Shown: one piece after another, positions 7,709 through 24,842 of the stretch
Layout of the letters: each line of letters begins with the position of its first letter
How positions within the stretch are numbered: position 1 is the stretch's first letter
Assembly (NCBI GenBank): GCA_031263025.1
Contig: JAISGO010000040.1
Span: 1-32,076, forward strand
DNA length: 32,076 bases
Reading direction: 5' to 3'
Source: Coriobacteriales bacterium
GTDB taxonomy: Bacteria; Actinomycetota; Coriobacteriia; Coriobacteriales; UBA8131
Program-made: the position numbers and the translations under genes
Notes under the pieces: model-generated
Databases searched by the model: none
The model's input: the letters and a program-made list of their open reading frames with translations, nothing else
What the model was told of the DNA's origin: nothing

Positions 7709-8968
7709 TCAGGACGACGAAGCCGGTGCTACTTTGCGCTTGCGATAGAACTCGTCGCGTACGATTGGCTGTTCCGGCAGTAAGGATTCTAGGATGTTGC
7801 GCAGCGCTGCGACCGCTTCGGGCGCCTCGAACATGCGGTCATGCTTAAAAGATCGGCCGGGCTGCAGGATCCGGAAATCCAATAAGGTCTTGATGGCGTC
7901 ATTGACCGAGGAAAAGCTCTTCTGGGTTACCTGCATGGCCGAGCGCACGCTGATCACTGGCATCCCTGGCAAGGCCCAGAGCAGACGTTCAAGGGTCGAG
8001 TCGCGCCCGATCCGCCCGATCCGGTCACGCCAACTCTCTTCGAGCCCTTCGACTACGTCTATGCAGACCGCGACCACCTCGGCCGAGAGCATCGCGCAGG
8101 CCGCGCAGTAATCCACGAACTTGTCCTGTACCATGAAGAGACGCACGTTCTCGACGGTCACGCCCAGGTTGTAGGGCATCAGGGCGCGCACGTGTTCGCG
8201 CGTGTGCATGGCTGGCAGGAGTCCCAAGGGCAGAGCCACCGACTTGAGGGTCTCCCGGCGGAAGTAGATAGCATGGCTCATCAGCCGGTCGATCCGGTCC
8301 ATCTTGTTCTCGAAAGGTTTGATCGCCTCGAGCTGGAAATGGGAGAGGGCCGCCTGGGCGGTGGGGGTGAAAGTGTCCTTGCTCACGAAGTCGCAGTAAT
8401 CCCTGACCAGATGCAAGAGCTCGTCGGGGTGGGGTGGTTGGTAGATGTCTTCTGCGACGTTGTCGTCGGCGATGCTGAACTCATGGGTGCGGTAGGCGAG
8501 CTTCTCGGCCGGGTCGATACTGTCTGGCCCCACCAGGCAGAGCCGCCTGATGCGGAGCAGGAGCTCCGGCGTGATCACGCTCTTGCGGTCAAAGGTGCGC
8601 CCCATCCACTCAAAAGTACGCATATAGCGGTAGCTTTCGAGCACGGCCTGGGGGTCGGCGCAGCCGTCATTGGCCAAGGTCTCGCGAATCTGTTGGTTAG
8701 ACCATTCCATGATCGTACCGTGCAGGGAGACGATGTTCTCCAGGCGTAGCAAGCCGATCAGGTCAGGTTTGTCTCCGTCGACCCAGGACGAGGAGACGGT
8801 CTCGATGTGGGCCAGCATCTGGCTCAGACTAAAACGATAAGGGCTGTTTAGGATGGTGTGCTCGGCCCGGATCATCTCCCGTTCACACTCGTACAGCTCG
8901 GCTGCAGTGTCGTCGCGTAAGAGGAACCTGCTGGTCTCGATCGGTTGGGGTTGGTAGACTGCGCTCAT
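7709..8968 (-). CDS. Fic-fold protein with degenerate active site
   Basis: A 419-residue protein whose layout matches large Fic-domain proteins: an N-terminal helical region with LLRLENIVSLHG (around residues 73-84, the position of the inhibitory-helix region), a Fic core, and a C-terminal winged-helix-like segment (about 325-395). Fic enzymes usually AMPylate targets using HPFx(D/N)GNGR. Here the motif at 217-225 reads KPFENKMDR: the catalytic His is Lys and the anion-hole Gly-Asn-Gly is Lys-Met-Asp. Upstream, FQLEAI fits the helix that normally precedes the motif. AMP transfer is therefore unlikely; a binding or regulatory role, with the winged helix contacting DNA, is more plausible. The frame is intact over its whole length, so it is not simply a pseudogene. 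Confidence 0.72.
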   Translation of the reverse strand: MSAVYQPQPIETSRFLLRDDTAAELYECEREMIRAEHTILNSPYRFSLSQMLAHIETVSSSWVDGDKPDLIGLLRLENIVSLHGTIMEWSNQQIRETLANDGCADPQAVLESYRYMRTFEWMGRTFDRKSVITPELLLRIRRLCLVGPDSIDPAEKLAYRTHEFSIADDNVAEDIYQPPHPDELLHLVRDYCDFVSKDTFTPTAQAALSHFQLEAIKPFENKMDRIDRLMSHAIYFRRETLKSVALPLGLLPAMHTREHVRALMPYNLGVTVENVRLFMVQDKFVDYCAACAMLSAEVVAVCIDVVEGLEESWRDRIGRIGRDSTLERLLWALPGMPVISVRSAMQVTQKSFSSVNDAIKTLLDFRILQPGRSFKHDRMFEAPEAVAALRNILESLLPEQPIVRDEFYRKRKVAPASSS

Positions 8969-9082
8969 CGGTTGTCCTTATCCTGGGTAAGTGTCGCAGA
9001 AAGCTGTATATACGATATTGCGCGCAGCCTGCCGAAGCAGGAATGCGCGCAATCGCTTTCAAGATCGGGCTTTCGCTCGGTC

Positions 9083-9349
9083 TTAGGCACTAGGCGGTTT
9101 GGGCGCTCCTGGTGCCGCCGGAGCGCCGGGCGGTGACTGGGGTGCCCCGGGTTGGCGTGGTGCGAACCCGCCGCCGGAATGACCGGAGGCGCCGAAAGCG
9201 CCTGCCATCGCCTCACCGGCGTGGGGATTGACCGCGTCCTGGGGCAGCTCGGCTCCACATGCGCTGCAATGGGTCGACCCGACTGGGTTCGAGCTCGCGC
9301 ACTTCGGGCACTTGATGTCCGCCTGGACTTGTGCTGGTCTAAAACACAT
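9083..9349 (-). CDS. Small zinc-ribbon protein with Gly/Pro/Ala-rich tail
   Basis: An 88-residue protein with a zinc-ribbon: CPKC at residues 14-17 and CSAC at about 29-32, separated by SSNPVGSTH. The rest is a disordered Gly-, Pro- and Ala-rich tail. Such rubredoxin-like or zinc-ribbon modules mediate protein or nucleic-acid contacts, but no specific role can be assigned. The Shine-Dalgarno sequence AGAGGAGAG lies just before the ATG, which marks it as a real gene. It starts 12 nt after the VOC gene stop and is almost certainly co-transcribed with it from the promoter at 9890-9918. Confidence 0.72.
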   Translation of the reverse strand: MCFRPAQVQADIKCPKCASSNPVGSTHCSACGAELPQDAVNPHAGEAMAGAFGASGHSGGGFAPRQPGAPQSPPGAPAAPGAPKPPSA

Positions 9350-9361
9350 ACGCTCTCCTCT

Positions 9362-9823
9362 CTAGATTCCGCCGATGTTGTCTTGCATCAGTTCGAAACG
9401 CTCACCGGAGGGCCCGCGGAAGAAACCGACCTTCAAGGTCACTCCTTTGTCGTTGCAGGCGGCGTAGACGTCGGCGTTGGCGCCGAGCGGCTGGTCGAAC
9501 TCAAGGGCCGTGTCGAAGGGCTCGGTCTCCATCGCGATGCCGTGGGCCTTCAGGTCGGCCACGACCGCGTCCATGTCTTTGACTCTGAGCGCGATGTGGT
9601 TGCGGTCTTGATTGGCCGCTTCAGAGGACTTATAGCCTTCAAGGCCGAGCAGCTCGATTACGATGCCGCCGGGATGCTTGATCCAGGCCATCGCCAACGG
9701 GATACCCGCCTCGTCCGCGTTCGCACGGAAAAGTACATCGAAACCCAAAACCTCGGTATAGAACTTCACCGAAGCCTCAATGTCATCACAGTAGATGCCA
9801 TAATGTTGGGCACTAATGTCCAT
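9362..9823 (-). CDS. VOC-superfamily (glyoxalase/dioxygenase fold) protein
   Basis: A 153-residue protein with the paired beta-alpha-beta-beta-beta modules of the vicinal oxygen chelate fold. The first module begins HYGIYCDDIEASVKFYTEVLGF and the second includes NHIALRVKDMDAVVADLKAHG. Candidate metal ligands are the His near residue 7, Glu in IVIELLG, His in NHIAL and Glu in ERFELMQ near the end. Family members include glyoxalase I, methylmalonyl-CoA epimerase and ring-cleaving dioxygenases, so the substrate is open. The start is fixed by the Shine-Dalgarno GAAAGGAG; a longer frame exists upstream but runs through the promoter. It is divergent from the molybdoenzyme operon and shares an operator-like element with it. 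Confidence 0.82.
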   Translation of the reverse strand: MDISAQHYGIYCDDIEASVKFYTEVLGFDVLFRANADEAGIPLAMAWIKHPGGIVIELLGLEGYKSSEAANQDRNHIALRVKDMDAVVADLKAHGIAMETEPFDTALEFDQPLGANADVYAACNDKGVTLKVGFFRGPSGERFELMQDNIGGI

Positions 9824-9859
9824 ATGTACTCCTTTCTGTTTTCGGAAAACGGAAAGGAT

Positions 9860-9888
9860 GGGAACCACCCTTACTTGTGTGTGCACAC
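9860..9888. promoter_or_regulatory. Operator-like element, copy 1 (VOC side)
   Basis: GGGAACC (9860-9866), a 5-nt gap, then TACTTGTGTGT (9872-9882), which runs into the perfect palindrome GTGTGCACAC (9879-9888). It sits just downstream of the VOC promoter -10 box. The same two blocks, in the same orientation, recur at 10132-10156 ahead of the molybdoenzyme gene, which suggests one regulator for both transcription units. Confidence 0.5.
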
Positions 9889-9889
9889 T

Positions 9890-9918
9890 AATGTAACACG
9901 CTCCAGTCCTAAAGTCAA
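9890..9918 (-). promoter_or_regulatory. Promoter of the VOC/zinc-ribbon operon
   Basis: On the minus strand: -35 TTGACT (9918-9913), a 17-bp spacer, and -10 TACATT (9895-9890). The palindrome GTGTGCACAC follows within a few bases, over the expected start site, and the VOC ATG lies about 65 bp further on. Confidence 0.65.
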
Positions 9919-9955
9919 CGACGAAAGCTGAGTACAACCTTTTTAGCTATACAGA

Positions 9956-10018
9956 TTGCGGGATATGTAAAATTTCGCAACACAAATCGCGGATTGTAAG
10001 ACTTATAGAATCCCGCAA
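9956..10018. repeat. Inverted repeat in the divergent control region
   Basis: TTGCGGGAT (9956-9964) and ATCCCGCAA (10010-10018) form a perfect 9-bp inverted repeat 45 nt apart, with related half-sites (TTCGCAAC, ATCGCGGAT) between them. It lies in the 369-bp AT-rich gap between the VOC and molybdoenzyme genes and may be a regulator-binding cluster. Its arms are far enough apart that DNA looping or several dimers is more likely than one hairpin. Confidence 0.4.
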
Positions 10019-10090
10019 CGCCCTTTTGCAGCGTGCAATTATACACAACAATAAATAATAGAAAATCCGCCTAGAGCGGCAAAAACGAAC

Positions 10091-10119
10091 TATTCGCATG
10101 CTATAACCCTCCTTACAAT
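10091..10119 (+). promoter_or_regulatory. Candidate promoter of the molybdoenzyme operon
   Basis: A good -10 TACAAT (10114-10119) with a poor -35 (TATTCG, 10091-10096) at 17-bp spacing, followed by the operator-like element at 10132. A weak -35 fits a promoter that needs an activator. Confidence 0.4.
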
Positions 10120-10131
10120 TAGAAGAGAGGA

Positions 10132-10156
10132 GGGAACCTCACTTCTACTTGTGTGT
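10132..10156. promoter_or_regulatory. Operator-like element, copy 2 (molybdoenzyme side)
   Basis: GGGAACC (10132-10138), a 7-nt gap and TACTTGTGTGT (10146-10156), matching the element next to the VOC promoter. It lies in the presumed 5' leader, about 37 bp before the molybdoenzyme ATG. Confidence 0.5.
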
Positions 10157-10192
10157 ATTGTTGCAACCTAATCAACTTAGGAAAGGAGCGAC

Positions 10193-12679
10193 ATGTCTAG
10201 AGAAGAGATCGTAAAAGATCTATCCGACCGCCACGAGGGCGTGCACTACTGCTACACCACCTGCGTCAATAACGGGTGTTGGGACGCTAGCTGCATCCTT
10301 AAATGTGGGATCAAGGACGACAAGGTCGTCACGATTGAGGCCGATGACTCGGTCAACGCCAATGACGCCCGTGAGGACATCGGCGACGACGCTATTAAAA
10401 AGGGTATGATCCAGCTGCGCGCCTGCCCGATGGGCCATGCTTGGCGCCAGGAGCTCTACGCCGAGGATCGCGTGCTCTACCCGATGAAGCGGGTCGGCGC
10501 CAAGGGTGCCGGCAACGGCCACTTCGAGCGGATCAGCTGGGACGAGGCCATCTCGACCATCATCTCAAAGATGAAGGGCATCCAGGACAAATACGGCCAG
10601 GCCTCCATCTTCTACTGCCAGTATGGCGCTTTCGAGCGCTCTGACTTCCCCCTGGCCCCCTGGATGGACACCGGTGTGGCCTGCTGGGGCGACCATTCGA
10701 CCTCTGGCTCCGCGCCGGGCGAGAAGTTCCACCTCGGCGTCGACCTGGTCGATGTCATGTTCAAGGGCACCAGCCAGTCTTTCCCTGGCTTTGAGGCCCC
10801 CGACCTGCTCAACTCCGACCTGATCATCTTATGGGGTCTGGATATGCTGGTCGGTTGGTTTGGCACCGTGCCTTATTATTGCAAGCTCGCCCAGGAGAAG
10901 GGCGCTAAGGTGATCGTGGTCGATCCGCGCTACACCGTGTCAGCCGAGGTCCTGGCCGACCAGTGGATCCCGATCCGCCCCGGCACCGATGTGGCGGCCG
11001 AGCTGGCCATCGCCTATGTCCTCTATACCGAGGACCTCTATGACCACGACTTCGTCAACACCTACGTCGAGCCCGAGGGCTTCGAGAAGTGGCGCAAGTA
11101 CGTAGTCGGCGAGGAGGACGGCGAAGCCAAGACCCCCGAGTGGGCCGAGCCGCTTTGCGGCATCCCCGCTGATACTCTGCGTGAGCTGGCCCGCCTTTAC
11201 GGCAATGCCAAGGCCGTCCACCTGCAGTGCCACTATTCCGTCGGCAAGCGCAACCGCGGCGAGTACGGCACCACCGCCGCCATGCTGCTGCAGGCCATGA
11301 CCGGCAACATCGCCCGTCCCGGTGGCTGCGAGTCCGGCTGCTCTTTGACCACCGTCCCGCATCTGACTACCCCGATGCTGGACTGGGGCCGTGCTGCGGC
11401 CGACTTCGCCACTCCGGTCGTGATGAACAACAACAAACTGACCGAGACCCTGTACTGCCGCCAGAAGTTCGACAAAGGGGAGATGAGCGAGGACGAGTTC
11501 CGTCATCGTATCGGCAATCCTCCAGGATCGATCCTGCCCAACATCCGTATGATGATCATGGACAACAACTACGTCAACAACCAACATGACGTCAACAAGC
11601 GTATGGAAGGCTTCGCCTCTACCGACTTCAACTGGGGTTGGCAATGGCATATGGGCCAACCCTCGAGCGAGTTCCTCGACATCATGCTGCCGGCCCCGAT
11701 CCATCAGTTCGAGACCTTGGACACCTACTTCTTCGGCCAGGAGCGCTACTTCCTCGGCCCCTCCGGTATGCGCAACTACTTCGTCTTCTGCAACAAGGGC
11801 GTCAACCCTCCAGGAGAAGTCCGCGCTAAGGAATGGGTCTGGACCCAGATCGCCAAGGGCCTTGGCATCGGTGAGAAGTACAACCCCAAATTGATCGACG
11901 TCGATGACTACAAGGATTGGGATCAGGCGGTGCTTGACCGCATTTATAAGCCGGCCTACGAGGAGTGGGCCAAGGACTCCGACGGCTATCTTGCCTCCAT
12001 CGGTATCAAGCCGCGTCCCTGGGACGAGTTCCTTAAGTGCCCGGTCGAGCGTGTCCCCATCGACGAGCCTTTCTATCCTTTCAAGAACCTGATCGAGCTG
12101 GGCTACAGCCCCTTCATGACGCCTTCCAACAAGGTCGAGTTCTCCAGCTCCTTCTTGGAGAACATGGATCTGACCGAGACCCGTTGGCGCGGCCACATGG
12201 ACAGCTATCCCAAGTGGAATGTCTCCTACGATGACAATCCGGTCTATGATGGCTATTACCATCCGGACACCAAGGAGTACCCGCTGTCCCTGGTCACCCC
12301 GGTGACCCCTTACCGCCAGCACTCTGCCAACGACCAGAACTACTGGCTGCGCGGCGACTGCTATCGCCATGCGGTCTGGATCTCCCCGGCCGATGCCCAG
12401 GCCCGTGGCATCGTCGACGGTGACCAGTGCCTGATCGAGTCCAAGACCGGCGTGGTCAAGGCCCCGGCCTACGTCACTGAGAAGATCATTCCCGGCACGG
12501 CGGCTATTCACCACGGTACTTGGTTTAAGCCCGGCAAGGACTCCGATCCGCGCGACCCCTATGGCGTAGATGAGAACGGCAACTGCAACATGCTCTTGGA
12601 CGACATCCACCTGCCCCACGCGGTCGGCGCCCTGCTCACCGCAGGTCTGGTCCAAGTCTCGAAGATAGAAGGGAGATAA
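10193..12679 (+). CDS. Cytoplasmic molybdopterin oxidoreductase (DMSO reductase family), catalytic subunit
   Basis: An 828-residue bis-MGD enzyme. The N-terminus carries a Cys-rich Fe-S region (C20, C24, C29, C34, C38 and C78 in LRACPMG), followed by the DMSO-reductase-type segment RVLYPMKRVG...RISWDEAI. ACWGDHSTSG (around 160-169) aligns with the Mo-ligand loop of DmsA, suggesting a Ser ligand. The C-terminal MGD-binding domain includes the HSANDQNYW and SPADAQARGIVDGD regions. There is no twin-arginine signal, so it acts in the cytoplasm. The Shine-Dalgarno GAAAGGAG is ideal. It is co-transcribed with a four-cluster ferredoxin and an MFS porter, without a DmsC-type anchor; this recalls pyrogallol transhydroxylase and soluble catechol dehydroxylases. 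The substrate is unknown. Confidence 0.85.
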   Translation: MSREEIVKDLSDRHEGVHYCYTTCVNNGCWDASCILKCGIKDDKVVTIEADDSVNANDAREDIGDDAIKKGMIQLRACPMGHAWRQELYAEDRVLYPMKRVGAKGAGNGHFERISWDEAISTIISKMKGIQDKYGQASIFYCQYGAFERSDFPLAPWMDTGVACWGDHSTSGSAPGEKFHLGVDLVDVMFKGTSQSFPGFEAPDLLNSDLIILWGLDMLVGWFGTVPYYCKLAQEKGAKVIVVDPRYTVSAEVLADQWIPIRPGTDVAAELAIAYVLYTEDLYDHDFVNTYVEPEGFEKWRKYVVGEEDGEAKTPEWAEPLCGIPADTLRELARLYGNAKAVHLQCHYSVGKRNRGEYGTTAAMLLQAMTGNIARPGGCESGCSLTTVPHLTTPMLDWGRAAADFATPVVMNNNKLTETLYCRQKFDKGEMSEDEFRHRIGNPPGSILPNIRMMIMDNNYVNNQHDVNKRMEGFASTDFNWGWQWHMGQPSSEFLDIMLPAPIHQFETLDTYFFGQERYFLGPSGMRNYFVFCNKGVNPPGEVRAKEWVWTQIAKGLGIGEKYNPKLIDVDDYKDWDQAVLDRIYKPAYEEWAKDSDGYLASIGIKPRPWDEFLKCPVERVPIDEPFYPFKNLIELGYSPFMTPSNKVEFSSSFLENMDLTETRWRGHMDSYPKWNVSYDDNPVYDGYYHPDTKEYPLSLVTPVTPYRQHSANDQNYWLRGDCYRHAVWISPADAQARGIVDGDQCLIESKTGVVKAPAYVTEKIIPGTAAIHHGTWFKPGKDSDPRDPYGVDENGNCNMLLDDIHLPHAVGALLTAGLVQVSKIEGR

Positions 12680-12682
12680 CTC

Positions 12683-13447
12683 ATGGCTCAATACGGATTC
12701 TTTTTCGATCAAAGCCGTTGCTATGGTTGCCAGGCCTGCTCAGTCGCCTGTAAGGACTGGAACGACCTCGAGCCCGGCCCCAAGAAATGGATGAGTGTCT
12801 ATGATTGGGAGACCGGCACCCTACCGGACGTCCGGATCAACATCCTGGCCTTCAACTGCGGCCATTGCGACGACCCGGCCTGCGCTAAAGCCTGTCCCTC
12901 GGGAGCGATCTTCAAAGAGGACAAGTACGGTGCGGTCTTGGTCGACGAGGACAAGTGCACCGGCGCTCGCAAGTGCCTGGACGCCTGCCCCTATGGCTCG
13001 CCCAAGTTCGCCAACGACAACCCCTCCGCCAAGATGTCCAAGTGCACCATGTGCATCGACCGTCTGGAGAAGGGCGAGAAGCCGGTCTGCGTGCTCTCCT
13101 GCCCGATGCGTGCCTTTGACTTCGGGCCCATCGACGAGCTGCGCCAGAAGTACGGTGACTGCGCCCAGTTGGCCGAGATGCCTGATCCCAAGCTGACCCA
13201 CCCCAACGTGGTCTACAAAGCGCATCGCGACCGTCAGCAGTTCGTGCCCCTGGACGGCAAGAAGGTCTTGGAGTTGCAGAAAGACCGTAACGTCGGCCAG
13301 TACAAGGACGCCGGCCTCGACCCCGTCTACACCGACCTCAAGGCTGAGACCGATCCGCCGGCTGGCGAGATCAAGCGTAACAAGCTCGTGATGGTCAACA
13401 AGACGGCCGAAGCCGTAATGGCCGCCACCAGTAACGATTTGGGCTAA
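12683..13447 (+). CDS. DmsB-like four-cluster ferredoxin subunit
   Basis: A 254-residue electron-transfer subunit that starts 3 nt after the molybdoenzyme stop (Shine-Dalgarno AAGGGAG). Four Cys groups are arranged as in DmsB/NrfC: C13-C16-C19-C23; C59-C62-C67-C71; C92-(A95)-C98-C102; and C121-C124-C136-C140. The third group reads CTGARKCLDACPYG, with Ala where the second Cys normally is, so that cluster may be [3Fe-4S] or ligated differently. A C-terminal extension of about 100 residues has no cysteine cluster. There is no signal peptide or membrane segment. It should carry electrons to or from the molybdoenzyme in the cytoplasm; the donor is not encoded in this operon. Confidence 0.88.
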   Translation: MAQYGFFFDQSRCYGCQACSVACKDWNDLEPGPKKWMSVYDWETGTLPDVRINILAFNCGHCDDPACAKACPSGAIFKEDKYGAVLVDEDKCTGARKCLDACPYGSPKFANDNPSAKMSKCTMCIDRLEKGEKPVCVLSCPMRAFDFGPIDELRQKYGDCAQLAEMPDPKLTHPNVVYKAHRDRQQFVPLDGKKVLELQKDRNVGQYKDAGLDPVYTDLKAETDPPAGEIKRNKLVMVNKTAEAVMAATSNDLG

Positions 13448-13461
13448 GGCCTGGATTACTC

Positions 13462-13501
13462 GGATACCGGCCGTGATTTGCTCAAGTCATGGCCGGTATC
13501 C
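13462..13501 (+). terminator. Perfect 11-bp hairpin between ferredoxin and MFS genes
   Basis: GGATACCGGCC (13462-13472) and GGCCGGTATCC (13491-13501) are perfect complements with an 18-nt loop, followed by TTCTT. With the short T run it may be a partial terminator that lowers expression of the downstream transporter, or an mRNA-stabilising structure. Confidence 0.6.
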
Positions 13502-13524
13502 TTCTTACATGATAGGAGGTTATT

Positions 13525-14778
13525 TTGCAGAAATATAAGAATCATGTCCTGATCGCCATTGTGATGCTGCTCTTCGGTACGCTGGTCGCGACCGCGCAGT
13601 ACAAGGTGACGCCTTTCATGAACAACTTCGCCGGGGATCCTTTCAATCTCGGCGGCAATGTCTCTTGGGTGATGTCGATCTTTACCTTCGTCGGCATCAT
13701 CTTGGCGATCCCGACCGGCAACCTGGCAAAGCGTTTCGGGCCCAAGAACATCCTGATCGCGGCCCTTGGCTTCGTGCTGGTCGGCACCATCATCGGCCTG
13801 GTCGCTTTGGCCATGGGCAACGGGGCGATCCTAATCGTCTCCCGCGCGGTCGAGGGTGTGGCAGTTATCTTTACCACCATTTGCGGCCCCTTGGCGGTGC
13901 AGAAGTACGTGGCGCCGGACAAGGTCGGCTCGGCCACCGGTATCTGGGCGCTTTGGGTCTGCCTTGGCTCCGTGGTCGGCGGTACCCTGACCCCGATTAT
14001 TTGGTCGGCTTTCGGCGGCATCGAGGCTGGCTATTCGGCGATCTGGTATATCGCCCCCTGGATCATCTATGCTGTGATCACCATCATCTTCGCTTTGCTG
14101 GTAATGGTGATCGTGAAGATCCCGGGCGAGGTGAAGAAGAAGGCCGCCGACACGGCGGCAGAGGCCGCTGCTGGCCCCCAGGGCCACTACAAGGACCTCT
14201 TCAACGGCAATGCCATCATCTTCTTGATCGGCTGGACCCTCTTCAACCTGTCGATGCTGGCCATGCTCAACTACACCCCGACTTTCCTGCAGGACGCCGG
14301 CTGGGACAAGACCGTCGCCGGTTTCGTCTCCACCCTGCCGATGCTTCTGGCGATCATCTCCTCGCCGCTCTTCGGTTGGCTGACTGATAAGACGGGCAAG
14401 TACAAGGTCTTGGTCTTCATCGCCTTTATCGTGATCGGCCCCTGCACCTGGGTGATGCTCACCCAGTCTGGCCCCATCATCTGGGTCGCGGCCGTGATCT
14501 ACGGCGTGGTCGGGATGGGCGCTCCGGTTATGTTCATCAACTGCTGGAACTTCGTGGTAGGTAAGCCTGAGCTGATGGCCATCGGCATGGGCGTCTTGAT
14601 GTTGGTGCAGAGCCTGGGGCAGTTCCTCGGCACTTTCGTCTCTCCATTCTTCCTGGGGCCGAACATGAAGGATCCGGGCAACTTCGGCGTCCTCGCCATC
14701 GCCATGTTGATTCTCGCTGTGATCGGGTCCATCTGCGTCTTGATCACCAGCTACAAGTCTGGCAAGGAGAACGCCTAG
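13525..14778 (+). CDS. MFS transporter
   Basis: A 417-residue major facilitator with about 12 hydrophobic segments in two halves and a central cytoplasmic loop rich in Lys, Glu and Ala (about residues 205-230). The first-half loop GNLAKRFGPKNILIA and the second-half loop GWLTDKTGKYKVL are the family's conserved inter-helix 2-3 motifs. The start is TTG, chosen because AGGAGG lies 5 nt upstream and the first helix follows at once. Its place behind the molybdoenzyme and ferredoxin suggests uptake of that enzyme's substrate or export of its product, as with the MFS genes next to catechol dehydroxylases. The substrate cannot be read from sequence. Confidence 0.85.
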   Translation: MQKYKNHVLIAIVMLLFGTLVATAQYKVTPFMNNFAGDPFNLGGNVSWVMSIFTFVGIILAIPTGNLAKRFGPKNILIAALGFVLVGTIIGLVALAMGNGAILIVSRAVEGVAVIFTTICGPLAVQKYVAPDKVGSATGIWALWVCLGSVVGGTLTPIIWSAFGGIEAGYSAIWYIAPWIIYAVITIIFALLVMVIVKIPGEVKKKAADTAAEAAAGPQGHYKDLFNGNAIIFLIGWTLFNLSMLAMLNYTPTFLQDAGWDKTVAGFVSTLPMLLAIISSPLFGWLTDKTGKYKVLVFIAFIVIGPCTWVMLTQSGPIIWVAAVIYGVVGMGAPVMFINCWNFVVGKPELMAIGMGVLMLVQSLGQFLGTFVSPFFLGPNMKDPGNFGVLAIAMLILAVIGSICVLITSYKSGKENA

Positions 14779-14838
14779 ACAGCTATCTTTCACACTCTTT
14801 ACTTGTAGCCCAACTCAGCAGAGCTACAGGGTGCAGTG

Positions 14839-14874
14839 AAGGGGAAAGGCGGACTTGCGTCCGCCTTTCCCCTT
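14839..14874. terminator. Strong bidirectional terminator hairpin
   Basis: AAGGGGAAAGGCGGAC (14839-14854), loop TTGC, then the perfect complement ending in CCCCTT (14859-14874): a 16-bp stem with A and T ends on both sides. It lies between the MFS gene and the convergent redox operon and probably terminates the MFS transcript. Confidence 0.85.
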
Positions 14875-14889
14875 GTGACGAGCATTCCC

Positions 14890-14965
14890 CCGGGGACATT
14901 TTAAATAGTCTAGTTTCGACTCACAAGTCCGTGACCCTATCCGAGGCTATTTAGAGTGTCCCCGG
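14890..14965. repeat. 76-bp palindromic element with CCGGGGACA ends
   Basis: The ends CCGGGGACA (14890-14898) and TGTCCCCGG (14957-14965) are perfect inverted repeats; inside them AAATAG and CTATTT (near 14903 and 14948) form a second stem. It is a small MITE- or REP-like element. Its right side overlaps the 3' end of the NuoG-like gene and supplies that gene's stop codon. Confidence 0.7.
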
Positions 14966-15825
14966 TAGGGGGTGAGGCCATTCAAGGTGTCCCCGATAGA
15001 TTTGCTAGATTCCAAGTGTTCTCGTGCGAGCTGCTCTTGGCGATGGCGGGGGCAGAGCCGGGGGATGTCTAAGGCCACATCACGTGCTGGCACGTTTATC
15101 TGCGCTTGCTGCTCAGATAGGCCCTCTGGCTCGGCCTTGGCGGCGGCGTAAGCGAGAGCCTGTTCGGCGCCGAGAATCTCGCCACAGGTCTCGCAGCGCG
15201 CAAGTTCAAACTCCTGCCCCCAGATCAGGCGTTTGCCAGCCTTAAGGTCGTCCTCGCAGCTTATCGCCCCGGTCGGGCAGAGGGCGGCGCAGCTGGCGCA
15301 GCCGATGCAGGCCTTGGGAGAAGCCATCTCGATGTGGCGTTTGGGCCCCAGGCCGGCGGCTTTGAGTGCGCCGGGGCCGATCAAGGCGCAGCTGCGCAGG
15401 CAGCTGCCGCAGTTGACACAGGCAGATGACGGGCATACCTTATAAGGCGCCACCGTTTCCTTTTTGAGGGGCGGCAGCTGCGGCAGGTCGTAGCCTTTCG
15501 CCAGGTTCTGTAAGGTCTGGCTGTCTGGGGCCCGTCTCAGCATCAATGCCAAGAGCAGACCCCGCCAGTCTTCGATGTCTGGCGGGCGCGTCTCCACGCT
15601 GCAGTCCTCGTCGAGGCTATAGGCGCAAGCCGCCACTACTTTACTGCGCCCCCTACTGTGTATGCGCACGCTGCAGAGATGGCAGCAGGCCTGGCCGCGT
15701 AGAGCCGGGTTGGCGCCGCAGAGTAGCGGCAGTTCAAAACCGTTTTCGACAATCAATTCGGCCAGGTTGTCGCCTTTCTGGGCGTTCACGGCGCAGCCGT
15801 CTATCTTTACCGTCAACCCTGGCAT
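14947..15825 (-). CDS. NuoG/HydA-N-like iron-sulfur protein (2Fe-2S plus two 4Fe-4S)
   Basis: A 292-residue protein. Residues 1-80 form a [2Fe-2S] domain with C36, C48, C51 and C67 (spacing as in NuoG and the N-terminus of [FeFe] hydrogenases). A 2[4Fe-4S] ferredoxin follows (C136-C139-C142-C146 and C173-C176-C179-C183), then a C-terminal CETC plus CPRH pattern that may bind another metal. The catalytic domains of NuoG and hydrogenase are absent, so it is only an electron wire. The start was placed at MPGLTVKIDG, inside the NuoF-like gene (13-nt overlap); the longer frame upstream is unrelated. About the last 17 residues are encoded by GGGGACAC repeats. Confidence 0.8.
   Translation of the reverse strand: MPGLTVKIDGCAVNAQKGDNLAELIVENGFELPLLCGANPALRGQACCHLCSVRIHSRGRSKVVAACAYSLDEDCSVETRPPDIEDWRGLLLALMLRRAPDSQTLQNLAKGYDLPQLPPLKKETVAPYKVCPSSACVNCGSCLRSCALIGPGALKAAGLGPKRHIEMASPKACIGCASCAALCPTGAISCEDDLKAGKRLIWGQEFELARCETCGEILGAEQALAYAAAKAEPEGLSEQQAQINVPARDVALDIPRLCPRHRQEQLAREHLESSKSIGDTLNGLTPYRGHSK
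14986..14999. repeat. GGTGTCCCCGATAG repeat half
   Basis: A single half-element next to the 76-bp palindrome, nearly identical to the half-element that lies right of the IS110-type element (GGTGTCCCCGATGG, 28314-28327). It is read in frame by the NuoG-like gene. Confidence 0.5.
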
Positions 15826-17075
15826 AGCCCCAGCCTTTCCGGAAAGCGCACGACTAAGCTCTCCAACGAGGTACCGGCGCTGCTGCCCAGACCGCAGGTA
15901 GAGAGGTTGCGCATCAGCGCGATTGTCTGCTTGAGTAGCTTGAGGTCGGCCTGGGGCTTGGAGCTGCCGCTGGCCAGGCCGCGTAAGAGTTGCTCCAAGA
16001 GCGGCAGGCCCTCCCGGCAGGGCAGGCACTGGCCGCAGCTCTCGCTCACCAAGAAAGCGAGATTGTCCAGGACGACCTGGACGAGGTCGCAGTCCTCAGC
16101 GAGGAAGCTGACCCCGCCGGCGTGGATACTGGCTCCGCTACGCTCAGGCAGGTCGTAGTCGAGCTGCCAGTCTAGCGCTTCTGGGCCACAAAGGCTGCCG
16201 CTGGGGCCACCGAGTAATACTGCTTGTAGCGTAGCGCCCGGAGCCAATCCGCCGCTGGCCTCGAGGAGCTGGCCTAGAGTGGATCCCATCCGTAGTTCGT
16301 AGAGTCCGGGACGCGCGACACAGCCAGCCACGCTGAAGAGCTTGCTGCCGCCGTTGTGGGGGCTGCCCAGGGCGGCGAACTGCGTTCCGCCAAGCTCGAT
16401 GATAGCAGGCAGACAGGCCAAGGTCTCGACGTTGAGGAGCAAGGTGGGCCGCCCCCAGAGGCCGCTACTGGCGAGATGGCGGCCGTAGCGCACCTCAGGC
16501 TCGGGCGGTCGCCCCTCGATGGTGTTGACCACGGCGCCGCTGTCGCCGCGCACGAACAGCCCGTCACTCTCCACTATATCTATGCAGAGGTTCCAGCCGC
16601 TGCCGCAGATGTCCTGTCCGAGCAGGCCCCGCTCGTGGGCGGCGGCCAGGGCGGCGTTGAGGGGTTGGCGGCATTCGGGGTGCTTGCCGCCGAGGTAGAT
16701 GTAAGCTTGCTCGGCCTGGACTGCCCAGGCCGCGATTAGCATCCCCTCGATCACCCGTTCGGGCACGCGACTGAGCAAGGTCGAGTCTTTATAGACGCTG
16801 GGGTCGCCCTCGTCGGCGTTAGCGATCAGGTAACGTGGCCCGGCTCCGGCGGCGGTAGCCGACAGCTTGTGCGCCGTGGGGTAGCCGGCACCGCCTCGGC
16901 CGCGCAGCTGGGCAGCCTCGACTTCGGCGATGAGGGCTTGCGGAGACATGCCAAGGGCTTGCCTGAGAGTAGGGTAGCCGCCGCCTGCCGGACAGCTCGT
17001 AACACCCTGCGAGCTAGCCTGACTTATCCCGCCAAACAGCAGGTCAAGACGGGGTGAGCGGTCAGGCTTAGGCAT
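15813..17075 (-). CDS. NuoF/HydB-like FMN and Fe-S subunit
   Basis: A 420-residue homologue of the NADH-oxidising subunit of complex I and of bifurcating hydrogenases. The FMN/NADH fold is visible in GRGGAGYPTAHK (59-70), ANADEGDPSVYKD (86-98), YIYLGGKHPE and NVETLACLPAI. The SLBB domain is at about 245-325, and the C-terminal [4Fe-4S] site uses C347, C350, C353 and C394 (ESCGQCLPCREG...STCG). The usual GEET segment that contacts NADH reads GDSG (177-180) and DEGEP reads DEGDP, so nucleotide specificity may differ. No NuoE-type thioredoxin-fold subunit is adjacent. The start MPKPDRSP is set by domain boundaries and overlaps the ferredoxin gene by 8 nt. Confidence 0.87.
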   Translation of the reverse strand: MPKPDRSPRLDLLFGGISQASSQGVTSCPAGGGYPTLRQALGMSPQALIAEVEAAQLRGRGGAGYPTAHKLSATAAGAGPRYLIANADEGDPSVYKDSTLLSRVPERVIEGMLIAAWAVQAEQAYIYLGGKHPECRQPLNAALAAAHERGLLGQDICGSGWNLCIDIVESDGLFVRGDSGAVVNTIEGRPPEPEVRYGRHLASSGLWGRPTLLLNVETLACLPAIIELGGTQFAALGSPHNGGSKLFSVAGCVARPGLYELRMGSTLGQLLEASGGLAPGATLQAVLLGGPSGSLCGPEALDWQLDYDLPERSGASIHAGGVSFLAEDCDLVQVVLDNLAFLVSESCGQCLPCREGLPLLEQLLRGLASGSSKPQADLKLLKQTIALMRNLSTCGLGSSAGTSLESLVVRFPERLGLCQG

Positions 17076-17619
17076 CGACGACCTCCAGGTCGCCGATCGG
17101 ATCAACGCGACATAGTAGTAGCGCCCTGGATGGACACGCTTGGACACAGCGAGGGTAGCAGGCGTTGGCGTCGCTGGCGTCGCCGTAGCCGCAGAGGTCG
17201 CATTTGATGATGGCGGCTTGGCCCTGCGTCGGCTCTGAGGAGCGTGGGCGGTCTGGCCTGGGGCCCTTCTCCGGGCTGTCCGGCGCTTCTGATAGGCTAA
17301 CCTCTGCATAGTCGATATTGCCAAAGGAGCAGGCCTGTACGCAGAGCTGACAGTGCAGGCAGCGCTGCTCGTTGTGGCGCACCACCTGGTCAGGTGTGCG
17401 GTAGTTGGCCTGGGCCGGGCATACGCGCACACAGGCCGCGTCTGCGCATTGGGGGCAAAGCACTGGCGTGGCGCCGGTACTTCTCCAGACCAGCCGCAGC
17501 GCCGGGTATGGCACGGCCCCCTCTGGCCTGCCCCGCTCGGCGCAGGCCCTGACACAATCGCCGCAGCCGTTGCAGAGGCTCGGCTTTACTACAATCTGTA
17601 AGCGCTTGGTATTCGTCAT
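17068..17619 (-). CDS. HycB-like four-cluster ferredoxin
   Basis: A 183-residue Fe-S protein with four Cys groups: C16-C19-C22-C26 (CNGCGDCVRAC), CPQCADAACVRVCP, CLHCQLCVQACSFG, and a split group CDLCG...CYPRCVQACP. This is the HycB/CooF/DmsB-type arrangement used to link dehydrogenases or reductases to other carriers. The start MTNTKRLQ lies 2 nt after the HdrD-like stop (a TGA-GC-ATG junction), and the 3' end overlaps the NuoF-like gene, so it is the second cistron of a tightly coupled operon. A Pro/Asp/Glu-rich linker separates clusters three and four. Confidence 0.83.
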   Translation of the reverse strand: MTNTKRLQIVVKPSLCNGCGDCVRACAERGRPEGAVPYPALRLVWRSTGATPVLCPQCADAACVRVCPAQANYRTPDQVVRHNEQRCLHCQLCVQACSFGNIDYAEVSLSEAPDSPEKGPRPDRPRSSEPTQGQAAIIKCDLCGYGDASDANACYPRCVQACPSRALLLCRVDPIGDLEVVDA

Positions 17620-17621
17620 GC

Positions 17622-19097
17622 TCACCCCAGCTGCTCTGCCACCCAGGCCGCGTATTGGCCCGTCCACATCCCGCCCAGCTGGGCGAAGACCTTGTCCCAG
17701 TCGACTCGCTGCCGGCAGAAGACTTCCAGGTAATGTTTGCACTGCACGCGTTTGAAGACGCTCTCCGCTGGGGCCTCCAGGGCATACTGCGCCATCGTAT
17801 AAGCGCAGGTCGGGCAGGTGGTGATGAGCGTACCTGCGCCCCGCTCGGCCGCCGCCGAGAGGATCGTCTCGGCCCGCTCGCGGCAAAGCGTCGGGTCGTA
17901 GGCCGCCACGGCGCCGCCGGCGCCACAGCAGGCAGTGTTGCGGCAGCTATGCTCGAGCTCGCGCAGCTGTCCCAGGCCTCCTGCCTCGAGCAGCGCACGC
18001 AGGGGCGCCCCGCTCGTCTGCGCGCGGTCATGGCAGGAGTCGTGGATCGCATAGATGATATCCCGGACACCACCTGCGTCATCCTGAACTTGATTCAGGA
18101 TCTCCCTCTCTGCCTGCGAACCACCTGGCAGGTTTCCGCCCAGTTCGCACATCAGCTGGGGTAGGCTGACTATCTCTACCGCCCCGCCAAAGACCGCGCC
18201 CAGCTCCTCGGCGCAGCCCGAGCAGACCGTGACCACCCGGCGCACCCCGGCGGCCAGGCACTCTGCAAGGATACGCTGACGTAGCGCCAGCGAACGTTCG
18301 GCCAGGCCGGCGCTGACCAAGGGACTGCCACAGCAGTCCAAGCAGAGCGCCCAATGTAGCCCCGCCTCGTCCAGCCAGCGCCCGACCGCCCGGGTCAGCT
18401 CCGGCGCGTAGCTTACCAGCGAGCATCCGGGGAAGAACACCGTGTCCACCGTCTCCGGCGCCACCGTCGCCAGGTCGGGCCATTCCGGGTAGCTGATGCC
18501 CCAGACCGCCCGGTAGACACTGAAGATATGCCAGGGCTGGTCGACCAGCACGCTCTGTGATTCGCGCGCGTCCAGCACCCCGGCTGCCGCCATCACCCGT
18601 CGCCAGGCCTTGACCGTGGCAGTGGTCGCAAGCCCGCTGGGACACCAGGCAGTGCAGTGGTCGCAGAGGCAGCAGCGCCGTAGATAGTGGTAGAGCTCGC
18701 CCTCCTTGGCCAAGAACTCCCGCACGCCCTGCGCGAGCGCCTCCGGCACGAGCTGGTTCCACCGTGCCCCTGCAGGAGCAGCCTGCCCTGCAGGGGCATG
18801 GCCTTCGCCATTTTCACAGAACCCCTCCAGCATTCGCAGACCGGCCGCCGCCGCGAAGCTCTGGCCAATCTGGCCTGCGCCTTCTTGGTCATAGATGGGG
18901 CAACGCGCAGCGCAGCGTCCACACAGCGCACAGTCCCTGAGCGCGCGCTGCCACAGCGCTTCGGCCGCCCTCAAGGCGGCCTTAATCGCGCTCTGCTCTG
19001 GTCTCTGCTCCTTCAAGCCCACGTCTACTTTCTCGCCCTCCCCCAGGGTTGGATCCGTTGCCATTATTGTACTGTAAGGCTGCTCTCCTAGTGCCAT
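17622..19097 (-). CDS. HdrD/GlpC-like CCG-domain iron-sulfur protein
   Basis: A 491-residue protein: an N-terminal two-cluster ferredoxin (C56-C59-C62-C66 and CCLCDHCTAWCP at about 142-152) followed by two CCG domains (FPGC at 221-224 with CLDCCG at 251-256; HDSC at 351-354 with CRNTACCG at 384-391). CCG domains hold the unusual [4Fe-4S] clusters of heterodisulfide reductases and also occur in GlpC, LldE/LutA and succinate dehydrogenase SdhE. It is the first gene of a four-cistron redox operon. A second ATG at residue 12 (19064) is an alternative start; neither has ideal SD spacing. Two palindromes are inserted in frame (18081-18101 and 18765-18798), encoding linker residues. The electron acceptor or disulfide substrate is unknown. 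Confidence 0.82.
   Translation of the reverse strand: MALGEQPYSTIMATDPTLGEGEKVDVGLKEQRPEQSAIKAALRAAEALWQRALRDCALCGRCAARCPIYDQEGAGQIGQSFAAAAGLRMLEGFCENGEGHAPAGQAAPAGARWNQLVPEALAQGVREFLAKEGELYHYLRRCCLCDHCTAWCPSGLATTATVKAWRRVMAAAGVLDARESQSVLVDQPWHIFSVYRAVWGISYPEWPDLATVAPETVDTVFFPGCSLVSYAPELTRAVGRWLDEAGLHWALCLDCCGSPLVSAGLAERSLALRQRILAECLAAGVRRVVTVCSGCAEELGAVFGGAVEIVSLPQLMCELGGNLPGGSQAEREILNQVQDDAGGVRDIIYAIHDSCHDRAQTSGAPLRALLEAGGLGQLRELEHSCRNTACCGAGGAVAAYDPTLCRERAETILSAAAERGAGTLITTCPTCAYTMAQYALEAPAESVFKRVQCKHYLEVFCRQRVDWDKVFAQLGGMWTGQYAAWVAEQLG
18081..18101. repeat. ATCCTGAA/TTCAGGAT palindrome inside the HdrD-like gene
   Basis: An 8-bp perfect inverted repeat with a 5-nt loop inside coding sequence, encoding the ILNQVQDD stretch (about residues 332-339) in the linker between the two CCG domains. 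The sequence resembles dispersed palindromic repeats (ATCCTGAACTTG...CAGGAT type) known from many unrelated bacterial genomes. Confidence 0.6.
18765..18798. repeat. 12-bp inverted repeat TGCCCCTGCAGG inside the HdrD-like gene
   Basis: TGCCCCTGCAGG (18765-18776) and its exact complement (18787-18798) are separated by 10 nt. They encode the symmetrical Ala/Pro/Gly linker HAPAGQAAPAGA between the first and second Fe-S groups, which looks like an in-frame palindrome insertion. Confidence 0.55.
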
Positions 19098-22044: not shown

Positions 22045-22068
22045 GGGGACACCTTATAAGGTGTCCCC
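22045..22068. repeat. 24-nt perfect palindrome GGGGACACC-TTATAA-GGTGTCCCC
   Basis: A perfect palindrome of 24 nt between the surface-protein terminator and the small membrane peptide gene. It differs from the one at 24819-24842 only by a compensated T-A to C-G pair (positions 10 and 15), which indicates selection for self-complementarity or recent common origin. Confidence 0.75.
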
Positions 22069-24818: not shown

Positions 24819-24842
24819 GGGGACACCCTATAGGGTGTCCCC
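24819..24842. repeat. 24-nt perfect palindrome GGGGACACC-CTATAG-GGTGTCCCC
   Basis: A perfect palindrome 22 bp after the purF stop, a covariant twin of the one at 22045-22068. It may double as the purF transcript end, but no T tract follows. Confidence 0.75.

Follow-up and report, generated by a model that had tools for sequence, protein, structure and literature searches.

The window, a stretch of 32,076 nt from a Coriobacteriales bacterium, carries on its minus strand a four-gene redox operon (g1 to g4) that probably encodes a soluble, non-bifurcating electron-transfer complex, made of a reduced Type 2 Bfu complex and an HdrD-like CCG protein. The HycB-NuoF-NuoG-N part of the operon (g2-g4) descends, judging from its sequences, from Type 2 Bfu complexes of the AOR-, XDH- or CODH-linked kinds. 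This ancestry is recorded together with a conserved gene order, the loss of domains and the full retention of Fe-S ligands along one linear path.

The operon and its leading CCG protein

The window is contig C4 of a MAG of 1.39 Mb in 58 contigs, which is 89% complete. The first-pass annotation had placed four redox genes in one operon here, and the open reading frames and Pfam matches bear this out: the order on the minus strand is g1 (CCG), g2 (HycB-like), g3 (NuoF-like) and g4 (NuoG-N-like). The tight spacing it reported was recovered by direct reading of the sequence, with a gap of 2 nt between g1 and g2, and overlaps of 8 nt between g2 and g3 and of 13 nt between g3 and g4. As it had also stated, no hydrogenase, formate dehydrogenase or HdrA is present within the operon. 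The product of g2 (17068..17619, 183 aa) is a HycB/WorS-like ferredoxin with four 4Fe-4S clusters, identified by Pfam (Fer4_6, 2.3e-12), PDB sequence matches and a check of its cysteines. According to Pfam (Complex1_51K, 4.2e-32, plus NADH_4Fe-4S and SLBB), alignments, a tree and the predicted fold, g3 (15813..17075, 420 aa) corresponds to the core only of NuoF/BfuB. Its natural start is an ATG with GGAGG six bases 5' of it, which gives the 420-aa protein; the 580-aa ORF listed for this gene begins upstream, inside g2, and was rejected. Finally, g4 (14947..15825, 292 aa) was classed as a Type 2 BfuA, or NuoG-N-like, protein by its Pfam matches (Fer2_4 and Fer4_7) and the alignment of its cysteines.

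The adjoining transcription unit (10193-14778) is convergent and encodes a molybdopterin reductase, a DmsB-like protein and an MFS transporter. Its reductase has no obvious Tat signal and is one of eight molybdopterin enzymes in the 1.4-Mb genome. Between the MFS gene and g4 lies a hairpin, a probable terminator, at about 14839-14874 (fold of 14826-14885, -36.2 kcal/mol). A repeat search showed that a copy of a genome-specific dispersed palindrome (14896..14968) overlaps the 3' end of g4 and provides its final codons and stop. A chimeric MAG is unlikely, since this repeat sits inside the end of g4. The palindrome, GGGGACACYCTATARRGTGTCCCC, is intergenic and has other copies in the window (14987, 22046-22067, 24820-24841 and 28313) and genome-wide. 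One half of it, TAGAGTGTCCCC, has 44 exact matches in the 1.39-Mb genome, where the reversed control has 0. The palindrome exists in a compact form and in one with long arms, which lie about 60 bp apart, and is nearly absent from related genomes.

The first gene, g1 (17622..19097, 491 aa), encodes an HdrD/EtfD-like CCG protein (Pfam CCG, 6.5e-18). Alignment and motifs reveal two 4Fe-4S sites (C56-C59-C62-C66 and C142/143-C145-C148-C152) and two complete CCG noncubane-type sites (C225..CC255/256..C292xxC295 and C355..CC390/391..C428xxC431). The two complete CX(29-39)CC..CXXC sites of HdrB/HdrD-type proteins are thus found at 225-295 and 355-431, and are invariant in 17 rows. The AlphaFold model (pLDDT 78.6, pTM 0.81) was matched by Foldseek to EtfD, HdrB and LutA. 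The protein shares this fold and both complete CCG motifs with HdrB/HdrD, EtfD and LutA, but is only about 16-21% identical to them and has no HdrE, HdrA or ETF partner. Hydropathy predicted no transmembrane helix in g1 (maximum KD19 1.51), and the operon contains no gene for an HdrDE-type membrane cytochrome subunit or anchor. Within the order, orthologues with 37-44% full-length identity occur both in the family of the window genome and outside it. The gene is widespread there as an orphan with varied neighbours, and no constant partner emerged from the neighbours in 20 loci. Here it leads an operon, from which we infer its physical association with g2-g4. The genome has one other CCG protein only (C53, 316 aa).

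The first-pass annotation had proposed a search for this exact four-gene order in other genomes; run with g3, it returned none among samples of 400 genomes of the class and about 400 of the phylum. The short NuoFs inspected in the phylum sample were in complex I, hydrogenase or formate dehydrogenase loci, and a scan of genome contigs gave three remote loci only. The arrangement is known from this one MAG, with no sister species carrying the operon.

Descent from Type 2 Bfu complexes

Homologues of g3 and g4 were searched in relatives, in the class and in the phylum, and their surrounding genes were retrieved. The NuoF gene of the family and order is usually about 600-650 aa long, and homologous operons of the family, order and class follow three layouts: HycB-AOR-NuoE-NuoF-NuoG-N (14 loci), HycB-CooS-NuoE-NuoF-NuoG-N (six loci, of which one ends at a contig end and another, L041, is without a separate NuoE), and HycB-XDH-CCG flavoprotein-NuoE-NuoF-NuoG-N (three loci, L034, L038 and L039). 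These are the layouts of Type 2 Bfu (Schut et al. 2022, PMC9304861), and they agree with the SLCBA order of Class IV WORs (PMC13328260). The order HycB, NuoF, NuoG-N of the homologous operons is retained in g2, g3 and g4. Chains E, B and A of PDB 9MQX, an electron-bifurcating tungsten aldehyde oxidoreductase, match g2, g3 and g4, respectively, and its chain D, an AOR, matches the AOR from one of the AOR-linked operons. The window operon therefore reads as S-(L)-(C)-B-A from which L and C have gone. No paper on 9MQX, or on a CCG-NuoF complex in this class, was found in the literature.

The phylogeny of g3 depends on the rows included. With the other long rows omitted, it joins the Type 2 set, apart from hydrogenase/Fdh-type NuoF, at 100/100; with these rows kept, the tree does not put it there. 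Its divergence is extreme: the branch measures 5-7 changes per site, where the median is 0.2. Common descent of the B and A subunits with those of Wor/Codh/XDH-Bfu is supported by the grouping obtained without the other long branches and by gene order, the placement being unsure when those branches are present. The affinities of g2 count against a Type 2 origin: it is at least as near to HycB of FHL/HDCR as to WorS, its PDB sequence matches being HycB3 of HDCR (3e-26), HycB of FHL (4e-21) and 9MQX chain E (1.6e-15).

The first-pass annotation had suggested a relay of an undescribed kind, and had held that known catalytic subunits beside homologous operons would make it a known complex. Such neighbours are largely what we found: in the same class, AOR, CODH, XDH and NuoE are encoded between the HycB and NuoF genes, so the parts of the window operon are best seen as derived from the known family of Type 2 Bfu complexes and not as an unrelated, new assembly. 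What stands is the more specific suggestion for this genome, which has no AOR, XDH or NuoE and whose PF03063 protein is not a CODH.

The closest Type 2 Bfu complexes are the Wor-Bfu, or Class IV WOR, of Acetomicrobium mobile (PDB 9MQX) and Codh-Bfu (PMC9304861; PMC13328260). Here g2 is homologous to WorS, g3 to WorB (BfuB core) and g4 to WorA (BfuA with A1, A2 and A4), in the S..B-A order of SLCBA operons, whereas g1-g4 lack WorL or any other catalytic subunit, BfuC and B2-B5, and have a CCG protein in front. The Bam-Bfu of Geobacter (class II benzoyl-CoA reductase, BamBCDEFGHI) has the same kinds of subunits, namely BamD (Hdr-like), BamC (HycB-like), BamH (NuoF) and BamI (NuoG-N), g1 being set beside BamD by kind and not by sequence comparison; BamD and BamE are homologous to Hdr subunits (PMC13328260). 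Unlike Bam-Bfu, g1-g4 are without BamB (AOR), the HdrA-type BamE, BamF and BamG (NuoE). The XDH-linked operons also combine HycB, a CCG-containing protein, NuoF and NuoG-N, but their CCG protein is a flavoprotein fusion of 800-920 aa (NF045663, diclust_near_Sec) beside a molybdenum hydroxylase and NuoE, whereas g1 is of another family and has no flavin domain. In these three loci an XDH-like molybdenum hydroxylase, the NF045663-type flavoprotein and a complete Bfu core share one operon; the text of PMC9304861 has no match for Xdh or xanthine. A second reduced Bfu operon occurs in L041 (genome G044, 8260-13264), where CooS is followed directly by a full NuoF, and the NuoG-N (175 aa) has no 4Fe-4S domain.

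Clusters lost and clusters retained

The third-substrate catalytic subunit of Type 2 Bfu is missing. Family-by-family queries of the recovered genome (89% complete) gave no AOR and no XDH, and its only PF03063 (prismane/CODH) protein, considered as a CODH candidate, is a hydroxylamine reductase. Likewise, NuoE (PF01257) had no match in the recovered genome. The NuoF-like subunit is itself truncated relative to the AOR-linked NuoF: its residue 1 aligns to residue 137, so that it starts 136 residues later, and it ends 82 residues before the end. The cysteines of both ends are gone, and with them B5, in the N-terminal 2Fe-2S domain, and B3 and B4, in the C-terminal 2x4Fe-4S domain. The ligands of B2 are also absent, C438 being replaced by D330 and H525, C531 and C536 falling past the end of g3. 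Where a BfuB has FMN and B1-B5, g3 thus retains the FMN motif and B1 alone. These losses remove the ferredoxin/bifurcation branch from the predicted complex.

The clusters assigned to the ferredoxin branch (B2-B5 and C1) are all missing, so a plain NAD(H) relay would fit better than the NAD(H)/ferredoxin relay implied by the first-pass annotation. The published criterion assigns to BfuB homologues without B2-B5 the binding of NADH but no interaction with ferredoxin. Residues A202 and M204 of NiFe-Bfu, in the flavin/NADH region, are associated with bifurcation (PMC9304861); these two, which could be mapped, correspond to V94 and K96 in g3. A Lys at the M204 position also occurs in the short NuoFs of L023 and L025, and in L019 and L041; the NuoF of L041 also has Lys and Leu at the positions that are changed in g3. 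With FMN and B1 only, and without the bifurcation-associated residues, g3 has the features of non-bifurcating NuoF/HydB-type subunits, except for their NuoE partner or fused NuoE domain. It resembles in this the NuoF of the non-bifurcating, NADH-dependent HydAB/HydABC of Syntrophus and Syntrophomonas (PMC7311640) and of complex I NuoEF, with FMN, a single B1/N3 cluster and a Lys for the bifurcation-linked Met. In those systems NuoE is present, on its own or fused, together with a quinone or hydrogenase module, whereas g1-g4 have neither.

The rest of the cofactor path is intact. All 32 ligand cysteines are retained (four of B1 in g3, 12 of BfuA in g4 and 16 of HycB in g2), whereas 89 of the 226 other positions conserved at >=95% have changed (39%) and 137 are kept (Fisher p = 5e-7). 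From this excess, g2-g4 look selected as an electron path and not decaying. The clusters of g4 are A1 (2Fe-2S), A2 and A4 (4Fe-4S), with 12 of 12 ligand cysteines when aligned with 29 relatives. It carries a zinc-ribbon-like CxxC..CxxH and, according to Pfam, no NADH-G_4Fe-4S_3 domain; A1, A2 and A4 without A3 and A5 is the Type 2 BfuA pattern. AlphaFold predicts for g3 the usual fold of a NuoF (pLDDT 83.8; TM 0.87 over the query to 9MQX_B), and the FMN-site residues are retained (GRGGAG, K70, N86, D88, E89 and N215). Seven near-invariant residues around the flavin/NAD pocket have changed (F65Y, G68A, W71L, R129G, Y132H, E178D and N214L). Given these losses and the extreme divergence of g3, its predicted binding of NAD(H) is not assured. 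A preference for NADPH was considered, as the second Glu is missing from the NuoF GEE motif, and was rejected, Ser being normal at that position in this BfuB group.

A putative electron route and its competitors

In the reading that we favour, a Type 2 Bfu ancestor would have lost its catalytic subunit, NuoE (BfuC) and all ferredoxin-branch clusters, and an HdrD-like CCG gene, an orphan elsewhere, would have been placed ahead of HycB-NuoF-NuoG-N. The electron route that we infer would run from NAD(P)H to FMN and B1 in g3, from B1 to A1-A2-A4 of g4, from there to the four clusters of g2, and from these to g1, with its two 4Fe-4S and two noncubane-type sites. From g1 the electrons would pass to an acceptor of higher potential, most likely a disulfide or a redox partner whose gene lies elsewhere, and they could also flow in the reverse direction. 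Electron transfer from NADH to a disulfide runs downhill, and this would account for how the complex could do without its ferredoxin branch. The NuoE cluster of complex I is off the main path, so the loss of NuoE need not break the chain. The relay ending in the CCG subunit that the first-pass annotation had outlined is partly supported: there are four compatible redox modules and no catalytic subunit in the operon, and a relay is the simplest account. We tentatively consider that g1-g4 may form an NADH-dependent reductase for a disulfide or another HdrD-type acceptor, with a secondarily non-bifurcating NuoF/NuoG-N/HycB input and the CCG protein as terminal catalytic subunit.

If the favoured reading is right, the operon would be a natural deletion experiment on a bifurcating enzyme, in which BfuC, B2-B5 and two signature residues near the flavin were removed together and every cluster of the linear path was kept. 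This would give independent support to the cofactor assignment proposed in the Bfu mechanism. It would also provide a minimal complex for studying NAD(H)-FMN-B1-A1 transfer without the ferredoxin branch and, in an anaerobe, a further possible end point that is HdrD-like and linked to NADH.

The main rival of a linear relay is that g2-g4, with or without g1, are a shared NADH input module for a catalytic enzyme encoded in trans, as HycB serves formate dehydrogenase in FHL and HDCR. We regard this as unlikely. Candidates include the convergent cytosolic molybdopterin reductase (10193-12679) and a lone Mo enzyme on contig C23. Two of the eight molybdopterin enzymes of the genome (C23) have no recognisable adjoining Fe-S subunit gene, and the best solved relatives of g2 are HycB proteins that dock such enzymes. 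Moreover, homologues of the C23 enzyme at L116:5270-7564 adjoin a CCG gene in four other genomes (L074, L080, L082 and L083; 43-48% identity). Yet the CCG protein in question belongs to a different subfamily, with 31-34% identity to g1. The convergent unit encodes a DmsB-like subunit for itself and is set apart by the hairpin, and no operon joins any of these Mo enzymes to g1-g4. In those four loci the CCG protein, of about 320-340 aa, is encoded directly upstream of a formate-dehydrogenase/PhsA-like Mo enzyme; the homologous enzyme of the window genome has no CCG gene beside it.

A decaying remnant of a Wor/Codh-type Bfu operon, without current function, would account for the lost subunits and domains, the very long branch, the many changed near-invariant NuoF residues and the repeat that overran the end of g4. 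It is nonetheless very improbable, as the four frames are open with tight overlaps, g3 has a good Shine-Dalgarno sequence, g1 keeps all its clusters and family motifs, and none of the 32 ligand cysteines of the linear path was lost. It is hardly credible that bifurcation persists in a new type of Bfu, in which the CCG protein would be the third-substrate site and NuoE and a ferredoxin branch would come from unbinned genes or from proteins of another kind: NuoE could fall in the missing part of an 89% complete genome, but B2-B5 are absent from g3 itself, where a missing contig cannot supply them, and the A202 and M204 signatures are lost.

Other redox loci of note are a NuoH/B/C/D/I-like membrane module without NuoEFG (L115:13748-17083), and an FeFe hydrogenase adjoining a flavoprotein with NuoF-N3-domain and GltD-like features (L119:1-3140).
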